Shown here: one piece after another, positions 9,110-19,208 of the stretch
Layout: each line of letters starts with the position of its first letter
How positions within the stretch are numbered: the stretch's first letter is position 1
Assembly (NCBI GenBank): GCA_029782355.1
Contig: JAKOUY010000011.1
Coordinates: 372,001 to 436,000, forward strand
DNA: 64,000 nt
Reading direction: 5' to 3'
From: Actinomycetes bacterium
GTDB taxonomy: Bacteria > Actinomycetota > Acidimicrobiia > Acidimicrobiales > Ilumatobacteraceae
The notes under the pieces: model-generated
The model's database searches: none
What the model was told of the DNA's origin: nothing
What the model saw: only the letters and a program-made list of their open reading frames with translations
Translations under genes and position numbers: made by a program

Positions 9110-10395
9110 CCGCCCTGCGTCGAGGCGGTCGTGCCCTGCGGCTCCAGCGACGCCGGACGCTGCGAGGGCATGTGCAGGTACTCGTCGCCCAGCGAGATCA
9201 CCGCATCGATGCCCTCGATGGGGGTGCCCACGGGACCGAAGGCGACCTTGCCGAACAGCGGGCTCGACGTCGCCAGCTTGTCCCGGTCGCGCGGCTGGTA
9301 CACGGTGACCACCGTCTCGGCACGCCGCGGCCCGTCGGTGACCTGCACCTGGGTGACGTTGCCGCCGAGGTACAGGATCAGGGCGATGGCGTCCATGATC
9401 CGCTGCTCCGACCCGGGCGGGGCTTCCAGCCGGTAGACCAGGCCGGTCGCCGGGGCGGACATGTTCGCCGGAGCGATCGAGGCGAACACCAGGATCGACG
9501 CCAGCAGGTCGATGGCCGGGAACTGCACCGTGGCCGGGACGGAGTCGGCGACCGACGAGGGGCTGGCGGTCGCCGACCCGGTGGAGGTGATCGTGCCGAG
9601 GACCTTGCTGGCCACCGGTCCGCCCGCCATCCGCCCGAGGAGGTCGGCGACCGTGGTCGGGGCGGCCATCACCGTCGTGCCGGTGCCGGGCGTCGTGGTT
9701 GCCCGGGTGGACGCCGCGCCCGGTGGCGCCGTGGCCGGCTCGGCGGACAGCTTGGCCGACAGGGCGGTCAGCACGGCGGCGACGTTGCCGGCCCGGCTCT
9801 CGTCGGTGCCTCTCCCGGGGCTGGTGAGCACCGCGGCGATCTCCTCGGCCGACAGGTCGTGCTGGCCACTGGTCAACGCCGGCGCGCTCGATGCGTTGGC
9901 CGACGGCACGTCGTTGGGCAGGGTGACGGCGAGTGGGGCGAGCGGCGCCATGAGCTGGGCGACCTGACCGGTGGAGGAGAACTGGACGACATCGAAGGAC
10001 ACCCGCACCGCCGACTCGACCGCGGCGACCAGCCCCTCCTGGCCGTCGGACGAGTAGGTGGCGGCAAGCGGCGCCGGCGAGGTGGCGTCGGCGCTGCTGG
10101 CGAAGATCGGGATCGACACCAACGACCCGCCCGGCCCGTCGGAGCGATCGACCACGGCGTACAGGCCGCCGAGCGAGCCGTCGGCCGCCACGGTGGCCCA
10201 CAGCCCGGTGGGGGTGACCGGGAGGCGCTGGAAGGTGCGGGTGACGTTCTTGCCGGCCGTGTACCGGCGGATCGCCCGGTACCCGATCAGCCCGAGCGAC
10301 GCGGCGGCGAGGAGCGTGGCGACGACGACCAGCCCGACGAACGTGGTCGCCCGACCCTGCCCGGCACGGACGGGGGGACCGCTGGCGGCGCTCAC
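9106..10395 (-). CDS. LCP/LytR_C-like membrane-anchored protein, degenerate
   Basis: 429 residues. There is a short cytoplasmic N-terminus and one transmembrane helix (about residues 18-38). A domain resembling a degenerate LytR-CpsA-Psr core follows, including GLVAAVESAVRVSFDVVQFSSTG. A Thr/Ala-rich linker comes next, and the C-terminal part ends in GIDAVISLGDEYL, similar to the VxLGxDY ending of LytR_C domains. The Arg and Asp residues used by active LCP phosphotransferases are not evident, so it may not transfer cell-wall polymers. GTG start 10395 overlaps the nadD stop. It lies in the operon position where actinobacteria often carry an LCP gene. Confidence 0.6.
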   Translation of the reverse strand: MSAASGPPVRAGQGRATTFVGLVVVATLLAAASLGLIGYRAIRRYTAGKNVTRTFQRLPVTPTGLWATVAADGSLGGLYAVVDRSDGPGGSLVSIPIFASSADATSPAPLAATYSSDGQEGLVAAVESAVRVSFDVVQFSSTGQVAQLMAPLAPLAVTLPNDVPSANASSAPALTSGQHDLSAEEIAAVLTSPGRGTDESRAGNVAAVLTALSAKLSAEPATAPPGAASTRATTTPGTGTTVMAAPTTVADLLGRMAGGPVASKVLGTITSTGSATASPSSVADSVPATVQFPAIDLLASILVFASIAPANMSAPATGLVYRLEAPPGSEQRIMDAIALILYLGGNVTQVQVTDGPRRAETVVTVYQPRDRDKLATSSPLFGKVAFGPVGTPIEGIDAVISLGDEYLHMPSQRPASLEPQGTTASTQGG

Positions 10396-16074: not shown

Positions 16075-16080
16075 ATGCTA
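16075..16080 (-). promoter_or_regulatory. Candidate -10 element of the thiolase gene
   Basis: TAGCAT; its first two bases are shared with the inverted repeat at 16079-16090, and it would give a leader of about 40 nt carrying the CAGGAG site. Confidence 0.35.
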
Positions 16081-16090
16081 CCGAGTGGTA
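16079..16090. promoter_or_regulatory. Short inverted repeat in the thiolase/P450 divergent spacer
   Basis: TACC-GAGT-GGTA, touching the probable thiolase -10 and 66 bp upstream of the P450 start. It would suit a small dimeric repressor. The arms are only 4 bp, so the evidence is modest. Confidence 0.3.
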
Positions 16091-16143
16091 ACCGGCCGGA
16101 GCACATTCGCCACAGCGATGGCGCCAGCGCCCGTCGCAGTTCC

Positions 16144-16149
16144 TACAGT
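16144..16149 (+). promoter_or_regulatory. Candidate -10 element of the P450-selenoprotein operon
   Basis: TACAGT, 6 nt before ATG 16156. Confidence 0.5.
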
Positions 16150-16155
16150 GGGACG

Positions 16156-17433
16156 ATGACGACCGACGCCGCCGCAACCGCCCCGGTTTCGCTGGACGAG
16201 ATCGAGCTCGACGACATCGGGTTCTGGACCCGCCCCCGCCCGTTCCGGGAGGCCGCCTTCCAGACCCTGCGCGACCACCCGACCCTGACCCACTGGGCCG
16301 AGCGTGAGCTCCCTGGCGGCTTCGCCCAACCCGGGCCCGGGTACTGGGCGGTCGTCGACTACGACGACCTGTGGCACGTCAGCCGCAACCCCCAGCAGTT
16401 CATCAGCGGCAAGGGCTCGAACATCCCGGACATGTCCCCGGAGGCCACCGAGTTCTTCGGGTCGATGATCGCCATGGACGACCCGCGCCACTTCCGGATG
16501 CGCTCGATCGTGTCCCGCGGCTTCACCCCGAAGGAGATCAACCGGGTCGAGGGGTACGTGCGCGACAAGGCCGCGGCACTGGTCACCGACGTCCTCGAGC
16601 GGTTCCCCGACGGTCAGTGCGACTTCGTCCACGAGATCGCCGCCCGCCTGCCGCTGCAGATCATCTGCGAGATGATGGGGATCCCGGCCGAGGACGAGGA
16701 CCGCATCTTCGCCTGGACCAACACCATCCTCGGCGCCGGCGACCCCGACCTGGCCCCCACCATGGAGCGGCTGCTCGGCGACGCCCTGGACATGTTCACC
16801 TACGCCCAGGCGTTGGGCGACGACCGGCGGACCAGCCCGCGTGACGACCTGACGTCGATCATGATGCAGGCCGAGGTGGACGGCGAGCGGCTCAGCGCCC
16901 AGGAGTTCGGCTCGTTCTTCATCCTCCTGGCCGTGGCCGGCAACGAGACGACGCGCAACGCCATCGCCCACGGCATGAAGCTGCTCACCGATCATCCGGA
17001 CCAGCGCCAGGTGTGGTTCGACGACTACGAGGCCACGGCGCGCGCGGCCGTCGACGAGATCGTCCGCTACGCCACCCCGGTCATCCACTTCCGGCGCACC
17101 GCGGTGGAGGACTGCGAGATCAAGGGGACGCGGGTCGCCGCCGGGGACAAGGTGGTGATGTTCTACAACTCGGCCAACCGCGACGAGCGAGTATTCACCG
17201 ACCCGCACCGCTTCGACGTCCGCCGCCCGACCCAACCCCAGCACGTCGGCTTCGGCGCCGGCGGGCCGCACTTCTGCCTGGGCGCCAACCTCGCCAGGCG
17301 GGAGATCGCCGTGATGTTCGACGAGATCCGCCGGCGGATGCCCACCCTGCGGATCACCGGCGAGCCGGACTACCTGCAGTCCGGGTTCATCAACGGCATC
17401 AAGCACCTGCCCTGCGCCTGGGATCCGGCGTGA
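16156..17433 (+). CDS. Cytochrome P450 (CYP125/CYP124-like)
   Basis: 425-residue soluble P450. The oxygen-activation helix reads A261-G-N-E-T-T266, and ExxR occurs as EIVR. The heme-binding loop FGAGGPHFCLGANLAR carries the axial Cys374. The tail LQSGFINGIKHLPCAW resembles the CYP125/CYP142 group, which oxidises sterol side chains or branched lipids. ATG 16156 is supported by a TACAGT hexamer 6 nt upstream and by the start of similarity. Its stop overlaps the start of the UGSC selenoprotein (GTGA). No ferredoxin or reductase gene is adjacent. Confidence 0.92.
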   Translation: MTTDAAATAPVSLDEIELDDIGFWTRPRPFREAAFQTLRDHPTLTHWAERELPGGFAQPGPGYWAVVDYDDLWHVSRNPQQFISGKGSNIPDMSPEATEFFGSMIAMDDPRHFRMRSIVSRGFTPKEINRVEGYVRDKAAALVTDVLERFPDGQCDFVHEIAARLPLQIICEMMGIPAEDEDRIFAWTNTILGAGDPDLAPTMERLLGDALDMFTYAQALGDDRRTSPRDDLTSIMMQAEVDGERLSAQEFGSFFILLAVAGNETTRNAIAHGMKLLTDHPDQRQVWFDDYEATARAAVDEIVRYATPVIHFRRTAVEDCEIKGTRVAAGDKVVMFYNSANRDERVFTDPHRFDVRRPTQPQHVGFGAGGPHFCLGANLARREIAVMFDEIRRRMPTLRITGEPDYLQSGFINGIKHLPCAWDPA

Positions 17434-19208
17434 GCGACGAGCCGGTCTACGAGGTCGTCTGGCCGAGCTCGCCCTGCGGCGTGCAACGCCGCTCCCCCGC
17501 TCCCCGCCTGGCGACCCTCGATGGCGCCACGGTGGCCTTCCTGTGGGACGACCTGTTCCGCGGTGACGAGCTGTTCCCGGTGCTGGCCGACGAGCTCCGC
17601 CGGCAGTTCACGAACGTCGGCATCATCGACTACCCGGTGATCGGCAACATCCACGGGGCCGACGAAGCCGAGGTGGTCCGCGGGTTACCCCGGCGGCTGC
17701 ACGACCTCGGCGTCGACGCCGTCGTCTGCGGCATGGGGTGTTGAGGGAGCTGTACGCCCGCCGTGCTGCGGGCCTCGATCGCCGCCGAGACGGCAGGCAT
17801 CCCGTCGGTGTCGCTGATCTGCCCGGGGTTCGAGGGGCAGGCGGCGGCCACCGGTCGGGGGATGGGGATCGACGGGATGGCGCTGGCGCTGACCGTCGCC
17901 CACGTCGACGCCCAGCCGGCAGGGCAGATGGTGTCCGAGTTCGTCGCCCACACCGTGCCGCAGGTGATCGCCGGGCTGACGGGGGCGTCGCCGTCCAGGA
18001 CACCGTCGCCCCCTGGTGAGTCGGGCGGCGAGCCGGCTGCGCTCGACGTCGTGGCGACCGGGAACCTCGGCGAGATCCACCGGGTGTTCACGGAGTGCGG
18101 CTGGACCGACGGGCTCCCGGTGGTCCCACCCACCATCGAGGCCGTCGAACGATTCCTGGCCGTCTCGGGCCACGACCCGTGGAAGCTGCTCGGGCGCGCC
18201 GCATCGTCCGGGCGAGACCTGTCGGTGTGGTCCGTGGCGGTCAACGCGGTCATGGCCGGGTGTCGCCCCGAGCAGCTCCCCGTCCTGCTGGCGGCCACCG
18301 CCATCCTGGCCGACCCGCGCTACGGCGTCGAGCACTCCGGCAACACCACCGGCGCCGACGCGCTGATGATCCTCGACGGGCCCGGGGCGGCGGCGATGGG
18401 TTACCAGTGCGGCCAGGGTTCTTTGCGCGAGGGCGCGCCGGCGAACACGACCACCGGTCGGTGGCTGCGGTTGTACCTTCGCAACGTGTTCGGCTTCACG
18501 GCCGACCAGCACGACAAGGCCACCTTCGGCAACGCCGCCCGGGTGCTGCTGGCCGAGGACATGGGCGCGTTGGCGGACATCGGCTGGGCTCCCCTGTCGG
18601 CCGACTTCGGCTACGGCGCGGCCGACGACGTCCTGACGATGGCCCGGTTCAACAGCACGGTGCTCATCGGCAGCGTGGTCGGCTCGTCCGCCGAGGAGGT
18701 GGTCGACTACCTGGCCGACGGGCTGGTCCGGGTCACCGGCTGGGACCTGACCCACGTCCACGGCCTCGGCCACGACCAGTACCGGCCGCTGCTGGTCCTC
18801 TCGCCGCTCCTGGCTCGGACGATGGCGCGCAGCGGGTGGAGCAAGCGCGACGCTCGCCAGGCGCTGTGGGAGGCGGCACGCCTGCCGGCGTGGCGGTTCG
18901 AGGCGCTCATCGGGTCGTGGAGCGGACTCACCGCCGGACGGCCCCGGCTGGTCGACCTGGTCGACGCCGGCCACCTGGCGGGGGCCTACGGCGAGTCCGA
19001 CGACCCGCAGCGTCTCGTCCCCATCGTGCCGCGACCGGAGCGACTGATGATCGCCGTGGCCGGCGATCCGCACCGGGCCAACGCCCTGGCGATGAGCAAC
19101 GACGGGCCGCACGGGTGGTGGACCGCGGCTCACGTCGACCGCTCGCCGTCCACGGACCTGGTGTGCTCGGTCGACGATCGGGACTGCGCCGGCCGCCCGC
19201 CGGGGTGA
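17430..19208 (+). CDS. UGSC family selenoprotein, TGA 17742-17744 read as selenocysteine
   Basis: One 592-residue protein in a single frame if TGA 17742-17744 is Sec105. Conceptual translation around it is VDAVVCGMGC-U-GSCTPAVLRAS, matching the Cys-Sec-Gly-Ser-Cys motif that names the UGSC family. Residues about 1-180 form the UGSC domain (VWPSSPCGVQRR, FLWDDLFRGDELFPVL, NIHGADE). Residues about 190-590 are a conserved domain of unknown function (WTDGLPVVPPT, VEHSGNTTGADALMILDG). C104/U105/C108 suggest a redox site. A hairpin 11 nt after the TGA fits a bacterial SECIS element. Ordinary gene calling splits it into a 104-residue piece and a piece starting near 17763. GTG start 17430 overlaps the P450 stop. 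Function is unknown; similarity on both sides of the TGA argues against a pseudogene. Confidence 0.88.
17756..17773 (+). promoter_or_regulatory. Candidate bacterial SECIS hairpin
   Basis: GCCCGC-CGTGCT-GCGGGC: a perfect 6-bp stem with a 6-nt apical loop containing GU. It starts 11 nt after the last base of the TGA codon, the spacing seen for the E. coli fdhF element bound by SelB. The hairpin also encodes residues of the conserved PAVLRA segment, so coding constraint contributes to the sequence. Confidence 0.65.

Follow-up and report, generated by a model that had tools for sequence, protein, structure and literature searches.

A predicted selenoprotein of the UGSC family fused to a conserved partner domain in Ilumatobacteraceae: a candidate two-part selenol reductase

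Does a TGA codon within a cysteine-rich motif stop translation or specify selenocysteine (Sec), and, if it specifies Sec, what might the protein do? The question is raised by a gene of an actinomycete of the family Ilumatobacteraceae (Acidimicrobiia; GenBank assembly GCA_029782355.1), located in a stretch of 64,000 nucleotides of contig JAKOUY010000011.1 (positions 372,001 to 436,000), which we call the window and whose coordinates are used throughout. An earlier note, made from the letters of the window, had claimed that a 104-codon frame and the large frame downstream of it are the same frame, with a joined product of 592 residues in which Sec105 is flanked by Cys104 and Cys108. Coordinates and translation bear this out: a single frame runs from a GTG at 17430 through an in-frame TGA at 17742-17744 to the terminal TGA at 19206-19208 and reads ...VVCGMGC-U-GSCTPAVL... 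across the first. Judged from sequence, the internal TGA very probably encodes Sec, and the gene has the following features.

17430..19208, plus strand: predicted selenoprotein gene, a fusion of a UGSC domain with a second domain, CT; it starts with GTG, has 592 codons with that for Sec counted, and shows homology on both flanks of the TGA
17454..17981, plus strand: UGSC domain, residues 9-184, scoring 88.8 bits with Pfam PF24696, whose gathering score is 25
17739..17741, plus strand: Cys104, immediately N-terminal to Sec
17742..17744, plus strand: predicted UGA codon for Sec105; TGA at the same site in six relatives, Cys in homologues, sel genes in the genome
17751..17753, plus strand: Cys108 of the UxxC motif, aligning with the Cys of the PrdB-like UxxC
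17756..17773, plus strand: putative bacterial Sec insertion sequence (SECIS) hairpin, which begins 12 bases after the UGA and has the stem GCCCGC/GCGGGC and the loop CGUGCU
18051..19205, plus strand: CT domain, about 385 residues; conserved partner, no convincing Pfam or NCBIfam match
18261..18263, plus strand: Cys278, the Cys of the CT motif MAGC, shared by all 80 CT rows of alignment A6

The Pfam UGSC profile matched continuously across the TGA (E 5.9e-25), and the similarity that the earlier note had described as uninterrupted there was also found codon by codon. Identity to six relatives (L063-L066, L079, and L045) was 52-63% before the TGA, 47-70% just after it, and 57-65% over the remainder, and per-site substitutions peaked at third codon positions before as well as after it. 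The recoded codon was TGA in all six, and the relatives continue past it instead of ending there. The content of guanine plus cytosine (GC) by codon position was 0.75/0.45/0.93 before and 0.72/0.55/0.94 after the TGA. The gene thus has what is expected of a bacterial selenoprotein, an in-frame UGA with conserved sequence on either side. The GTG start at 17430 agrees with the N-termini of relatives such as L066 (MSSEPTYDVVWP); a mechanical call of the open reading frame starts at 17013, within the upstream gene.

All components needed to recode such a codon were found in the same genome, including each of the sel genes for which the note had suggested searching. SelA (C4:6819-7958) scored 369 bits, above its cut-off, and is followed on the same strand by the gene for SelB, with 284.7 bits against a cut-off of 242.25. 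SelD, at 329 bits, was also above cut-off, and the tRNA-Sec reached 65.6 bits (gathering score, 47) and has a TCA anticodon according to ARAGORN. When selA was searched in 36 genomes grouped by their UGSC status, it appeared in 22 of the 23 with a UGA-type UGSC gene, in one of four whose UGSC matches over the cut-off contain no UGA, in both genomes having only a match below the cut-off, and in none of seven genomes from this order that lack UGSC.

We then considered the hairpin. The best stem within 42 bases downstream of the UGA was taken for each gene and the position of its centre compared among 92 UGA genes, i.e., the 96 listed UGA places minus four (one with an N, two extra UGA codons in an extension, and one off the motif). 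The best stem was in register, at one of two adjacent centres, in 82 of the 92, and in none of five Cys homologues (L013, L030, L033, L034, and L089). Eighteen of these UGA genes belong to alignment A4, whose members were chosen for carrying UGA, and 65 are of the D-type; nine are in neither A4 nor A5 (L088, L098, L101, and L124, twice each, and L117). In A5, the D-type alignment of 63 sequences (62 distinct), pairing extends to 91.1% of cells, a figure raised by the omission of L099 and L110 on account of their shifted motif. None of 500 shuffles gave a value as high, and seven of the eight pairs change on both sides. In the window-like set (17 distinct sequences) 98.0% of cells pair, and one pair has changed on both sides, in four sequences. 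A different alignment, A3, omits L068, L071, L074, L076, L097, and the near-copy L115. Both register and covariation therefore place a SECIS-like hairpin after the UGA at the level of the family.

Two other readings of the codon have to be weighed. One is that translation really ends at the TGA, or that the codon is a pseudogene lesion or an error of sequencing, and that what lies downstream is a relic or a protein with its own start. The downstream frame does have a GTG of its own at 17763, and the window holds 21 cases, this gene included, of more than 100 open codons followed by a TGA and more than 400 further open codons. Since the GC content makes such frames frequent, we treated the open frame past the TGA as weak evidence and discarded it as proof of read-through; a 607-residue open reading frame even lies antisense to the region. 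However, the identical TGA in the six relatives, the dominance of third-position substitutions on both sides, the UGSC domain spanning the codon, the presence of sel genes, and the occurrence of window-like UGA genes in actinobacterial, proteobacterial, and Chloroflexi contigs (a set chosen for UGA) make this explanation very improbable. Even less credit is due to the other one, in which UGA is read as Trp or by a near-cognate tRNA. Residue 105 is assigned from sequence, but the UGA-free homologues examined (five loci and six plasmid records) carry Cys at this position, tRNA-Sec and SelB are present, and the in-register hairpin is missing from all five Cys forms.

Some observations count against recoding as we describe it. 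One UGA-type genome, G036, gave no selA match at 94% completeness; the best stem was out of register in 10 of the 92 UGA genes; five of the six hairpin pairs are invariant in the window-like set; and the window hairpin, folded alone, did not exceed its shuffles in strength (z 0.41 and 0.03). A scan of the hairpin against Rfam returned only three matches, all subthreshold and unrelated. Because of the lone fold and the lack of a relevant Rfam match, the hairpin is supported by its family and not by the window sequence alone. The equivalog cut-off of NCBIfam NF041046 (UGSC) was not reached either (42.5 against 125 bits). We nevertheless read the TGA as a Sec codon because the sel genes and a tRNA-Sec with anticodon TCA, the UGSC match across the TGA, and the family hairpin in register coincide.

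Cys replaces Sec in six of the eight plasmid records that we opened, as well as in the five loci with Cys forms named above, so the Cys counterparts that the earlier note had expected do exist. Like the rest of the UGSC family (PF24696; NF041046), the window protein has the UxxC Sec motif, the domain match, and the use of Sec, and it differs in the residues around them. Sec is preceded most often by Asp (54 of the 92 UGA genes) and in 13 genes, including that of the window, by Cys; the motif is followed here by TPA, whereas TSW or TSC is the commoner continuation among the motifs listed. Far below the NF041046 cut-off, the gene was not assigned to that equivalog. The predicted protein adds a new and divergent member to a selenoprotein family already known, and is not a new kind, since both the UGSC family and a UGSC/"Unknown_1" fusion, in which UGSC is joined to a conserved domain, have been in print since 2008 (the latter in the available part of PMC2398784). 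Reviews and catalogues dated 2008 to 2026 include the family, as far as their accessible text goes (PMC2398784, PMC9312934, PMC13188914, PMC5029168, PMC9402790, PMC7435645, PMC7539508).

Annotation can go astray with genes of this kind. On the IncP plasmid p2-T1 of Acidovorax sp. T1, typed as conjugative, a 291-base coding sequence labelled "hypothetical protein" (L143:8640-8930) ends exactly at the UGA before GSC, and CT lies at 9261-10034, where no gene is listed; it is likely a truncated annotation of a UGSC-CT gene. The note had foreseen that gene callers would truncate such genes, and this record agrees with that, although the PLSDB gene table has gaps. Standard annotation pipelines can thus cut UGSC-CT genes short.

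Tandem UGSC-CT fusions of two or three genes, each with its own in-frame UGA, were seen at L085:3281-8729, L083:5413-8729, and L098:5155-8536. In genome G186, two UGSC genes (L048:6712-7239 and L049:221-730) have the Sec motif U-D-G-C or U-P-G-C instead of U-G-S-C, and in the same loci, which are outside A6, the CT residue equivalent to Cys278 is Ala; a linked change of the two halves is possible. Five records labelled "Bordetella parapertussis" (L086, L110, L111, L112, and L133) are metagenome-assembled genomes, and the species label looks doubtful.

The second part of the protein, CT, turned out to be the constant companion of UGSC. In a survey of the phylum that covered 41 of 47 match rows, two weak rows (G196 and G271) had neither domain, and in all 39 loci bearing UGSC, the window included, CT was found on the same strand, adjacent or fused (7 fused and 32 as separate genes). 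CT was present in 28 of 396 genomes of the phylum, and UGSC over the cut-off in 27, all of them among those 28; the genome studied here has three CT domains paired with three UGSC domains. In a second survey, we collected from CT matches the best 80 of at least 513 confirmed loci (the named loci), so that their counts lean to the kin of the window. Their titles cover Actinomycetota, Alpha-, Beta-, Gamma-, and Deltaproteobacteria, Chloroflexi, Rokubacteria, and others. UGSC was on the fetched DNA in 78 of the 80, and the other two (L093 and L132) lie near contig ends. The named loci hold 95 UGSC domains, with 43 fused to CT, 30 separate before it, and 22 separate after it; in 92 the distance to CT is within about 1.1 kb and in three it is 4.5-5.8 kb, all counted, like the 39 loci of the phylum, with UGSC and CT profiles that were trained on the very loci being counted. 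In a CT tree made by a quick method, the window falls in an 18-row clade of fused genes only, with a support of 99 in the Shimodaira-Hasegawa-like approximate likelihood ratio test. The fused state changes nine times by parsimony, or four times when only well-supported branches are counted. Nine columns are invariant in the 80 CT rows, among them Asp227, Cys278, Arg344, and Glu376.

The best reading of these sequence patterns is that UGSC and CT make up a single enzyme in two halves, which are joined in this gene and in many relatives and encoded by neighbouring genes elsewhere. One genome speaks against the rule: G183 has CT without a UGSC match. Its contig 272 carries four CT matches in two close pairs, the sole exception among the 28 genomes. 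Some loci with the window motif type have triple fusions UGSC-CT-CT (L068:5392-8352, L071:5413-8454, and L074:5416-8379, of 987, 1014, and 988 residues), and in L067, L069, L070, L072, and L073 a gene of its own further along encodes the second CT. A gene resembling thioredoxin reductase (TrxB) follows further downstream in L068 and L070-L074.

Comparison with known families and structures gave little for CT. From residue ~208 on, searches of Pfam and NCBIfam returned stray matches in one or two of 27 members (best E 9.1e-4), and the CT profile found nothing better than E 0.92 among Protein Data Bank (PDB) sequences. The whole protein had no match in the PDB by sequence, and the best hits of the UGSC profile there were unrelated chains (E 0.029). 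The structural model of the window protein was confident (predicted local distance difference test [pLDDT], 88.1; predicted template modelling score [pTM], 0.89), and so was an AlphaFold2 model of CT, residues 208-582 (pLDDT, 90.0; pTM, 0.91); a fold search with the full-length model gave nothing under E 0.001. In the VIA comparison, residues 31-189 resembled PurE/Rossmann-like folds, the best natural chains having Z about 10.2, a root-mean-square deviation (rmsd) of 2.8-3.1, and 122-124 aligned residues. Because the PurE profile does not match UGSC (1.0%), we take this likeness as a common arrangement only and set PurE kinship aside. A thioredoxin-like fold had been guessed for UGSC in the available part of PMC2398784.

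For CT alone, class I fumarases head the Foldseek list (E 3e-4, probability 0.91), followed by cyclic amide hydrolases. This order is what favours a reading in which CT is itself the enzyme, a hydro-lyase like fumarase or a relative of cyclic amide hydrolases, with UGSC as a redox switch or repair domain. The top fumarase rows, however, have TM-scores near 0.25 and rmsd over 14, VIA Z values do not exceed 4.9, and no sequence family common to CT and these enzymes was seen. A 4Fe-4S cluster needs a set of Cys residues, and CT has a single invariant one. We found the matches too weak to be used as evidence and regard a CT enzyme of this kind as improbable.

More informative was the Sec motif itself. 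When 25 UGSC domains were compared by hhalign with 17 sequences of the PrdB-like type, the probability was 90.4% (E 1.4e-6), and the 93 aligned columns took in the motif, pairing Sec with Sec and Cys with Cys of UxxC; controls in which the UGSC and PrdB-like profiles were compared with CT or PurE stayed at 0.15-1.0%. Among 14 PrdB-like genes examined, UGA occupies the U of UxxC in 13, and one has no UGA. Among 38 fused members searched with E up to 1, ten match TIGR04483 PrdB (best E 2.1e-4) and nine TIGR01917 GrdB (best 0.003). We take the UGSC Sec domain to share remote descent with the Sec region of PrdB/GrdB, as kin and not as a member, because UxxC aligns at the profile level and yet the score is below the family cut-off (12.6 against 300 bits for the window protein with TIGR04483). 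The window protein alone matched PrdB with only E 0.07, which tells against the kinship. The partners also differ: that of PrdB/GrdB is the pyruvoyl protein PrdA/GrdE, whereas that of UGSC is CT, which has no match to the PrdB-like profile. PF09338, for the pyruvoyl partner, was found in none of 20 genomes in a search whose control also matched nowhere. PrdB-like genes occur in 43 of 198 genomes of the phylum; most of the matches listed have one in-frame TGA and none is over the PrdB cut-off, and they are by these sequence features a further predicted selenoprotein group.

The surroundings of the UGSC-CT pair offer hints about a source of electrons. On plasmids, the order is trxB-trxA-CT-UGSC in Arthrobacter sp. 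ERGS1:01 and CT-UGSC-trxB in Roseovarius sp. THAF8, while in Variovorax sp. SRS16 trxB lies two genes ahead of CT-UGSC; TrxB-like flavoproteins are also close to the pair in V. boronicumulans and Haloterrigena turkmenica. With tblastn, a TrxB-like gene with CxxC was found in six of the eight plasmid loci opened out of 24 records with a match, one of them about 5.6 kb off, five of the TrxB queries coming from those same loci. It was also found in 6 of the 80 named loci, all of the window motif type and downstream of a second CT. The annotated plasmid loci have mainly catabolic neighbours, among them substrate-binding proteins, aldehyde dehydrogenases, and coenzyme A transferases; counting any position in the locus, 26 of the 80 named loci have a TTT-type binding protein. 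Regulators of the Lrp type appear to stand upstream in two relatives (from listed N-termini, one confirmed by profile), too few to use.

In the window, the neighbours of the selenoprotein gene are an opposite-strand thiolase, a GHMP-kinase-like gene, and the following upstream gene.

16075..17433, plus strand: cytochrome P450 gene, its stop overlapped by four bases by the GTG start of the selenoprotein gene

This P450 recurs in none of the 80 named loci and in 1 of 38 loci of the phylum, and we discarded it as a conserved neighbour.

Taken together, we consider it likely, by a fair margin over even chances, that the gene encodes a two-part UGSC-CT selenol reductase that holds its substrate on CT and is fed by a thioredoxin-type donor. 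SelB and the hairpin just downstream would recode the UGA at 17742 to Sec, giving a UGSC domain with a Sec105/Cys108 redox pair (UxxC) fused to CT. The Sec105 selenolate would attack or reduce an organic substrate held by CT, for which the invariant Asp227, Gly228, Cys278, Arg344, and Glu376 are candidate contacts. Cys108 would then close a selenenyl-sulfide with Sec105, and a thioredoxin or a donor like thioredoxin reductase may regenerate the pair. We infer this last part from the trxB and trxA genes near some UGSC-CT pairs and from glycine reduction, in which electrons pass from reduced nicotinamide adenine dinucleotide phosphate (NADPH) through thioredoxin reductase, thioredoxin, and GrdA to GrdB, according to the available part of PMC3091704. 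The UGSC-CT loci with such neighbours suggest the same for their own enzyme. The earlier note had read the protein as a UGSC-family selenoprotein, probably a thiol/selenol redox enzyme; the Pfam match, the sel genes, and the Cys homologues support that assignment, to which the fused second domain is added, the remote PrdB/GrdB kinship suggesting a more specific chemistry.

The same UxxC motif could serve a general thiol/selenol antioxidant, a peroxidase or disulfide reductase, instead of a reductase with an organic substrate of its own. TrxB and TrxA neighbours would suit a peroxidase equally, and a title cited in the accessible part of PMC3091704 mentions peroxidase activity of GrdB. Against it, the VIA listing for residues 31-189 gives PurE- and Rossmann-like folds (a fold outside the listing may still fit), the neighbours on plasmids are largely catabolic and TTT-type binding proteins recur, and the several paralogues in some genomes fit substrate specialisation better. 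We regard an antioxidant role as rather unlikely, although more plausible than a hydro-lyase or amide-hydrolase role for CT.

The reductase proposal itself has to face contrary observations. None of the 38 other loci of the phylum has a TrxB-like gene by tblastn, nor is there one among the identified neighbours in the window, so a donor for this organism would be borrowed from its relatives; moreover, several of the donor-bearing relatives are Cys forms on plasmids (five of the six plasmid TrxB cases). The neighbouring genes vary among relatives, and for that reason no pathway is fixed. There is no clear solved relative of CT, the best Foldseek E, 3e-4, going with a TM-score of 0.25, and VIA Z being 4.9 at most.

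A bolder and more doubtful idea, which we would sooner bet against than for, is that UGSC-CT represents an unrecognised, widespread two-part family of reductases within the PrdB/GrdB superfamily. Such enzymes would work in aerobes and haloarchaea with either Sec or Cys, would take electrons from thioredoxin or TrxB-like proteins, and would cleave C-N or other C-X bonds in organic acids, CT replacing the pyruvoyl subunit as the substrate-binding half.

UGSC proteins rank among the most abundant selenoproteins of aquatic metagenomes (PMC2398784 and PMC9402790, in their available parts), and UGSC-motif selenoproteins are mentioned for genomes with a CUA-anticodon tRNA-Sec in the accessible part of PMC5330540. 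The portions of the UGSC literature covered here, PMC5330540 included, assign UGSC proteins no function and state neither an obligate partner nor a kinship with PrdB/GrdB, and a literature search returned nothing under "UGSC family" and nothing on selenoproteins with "Acidimicrobi-". What is added to the known family is the link to a partner and the reductase hypothesis. A partner in tight linkage, a distant relation to the reductases of proline and glycine, and the thioredoxin genes near some of the pairs provide the first testable functional idea for UGSC, namely that both halves together may carry out an NADPH- and thioredoxin-dependent reduction of a substrate. As Cys forms exist in named strains of Arthrobacter, Variovorax, and Roseovarius, a selenium-free study of such an enzyme would be feasible.

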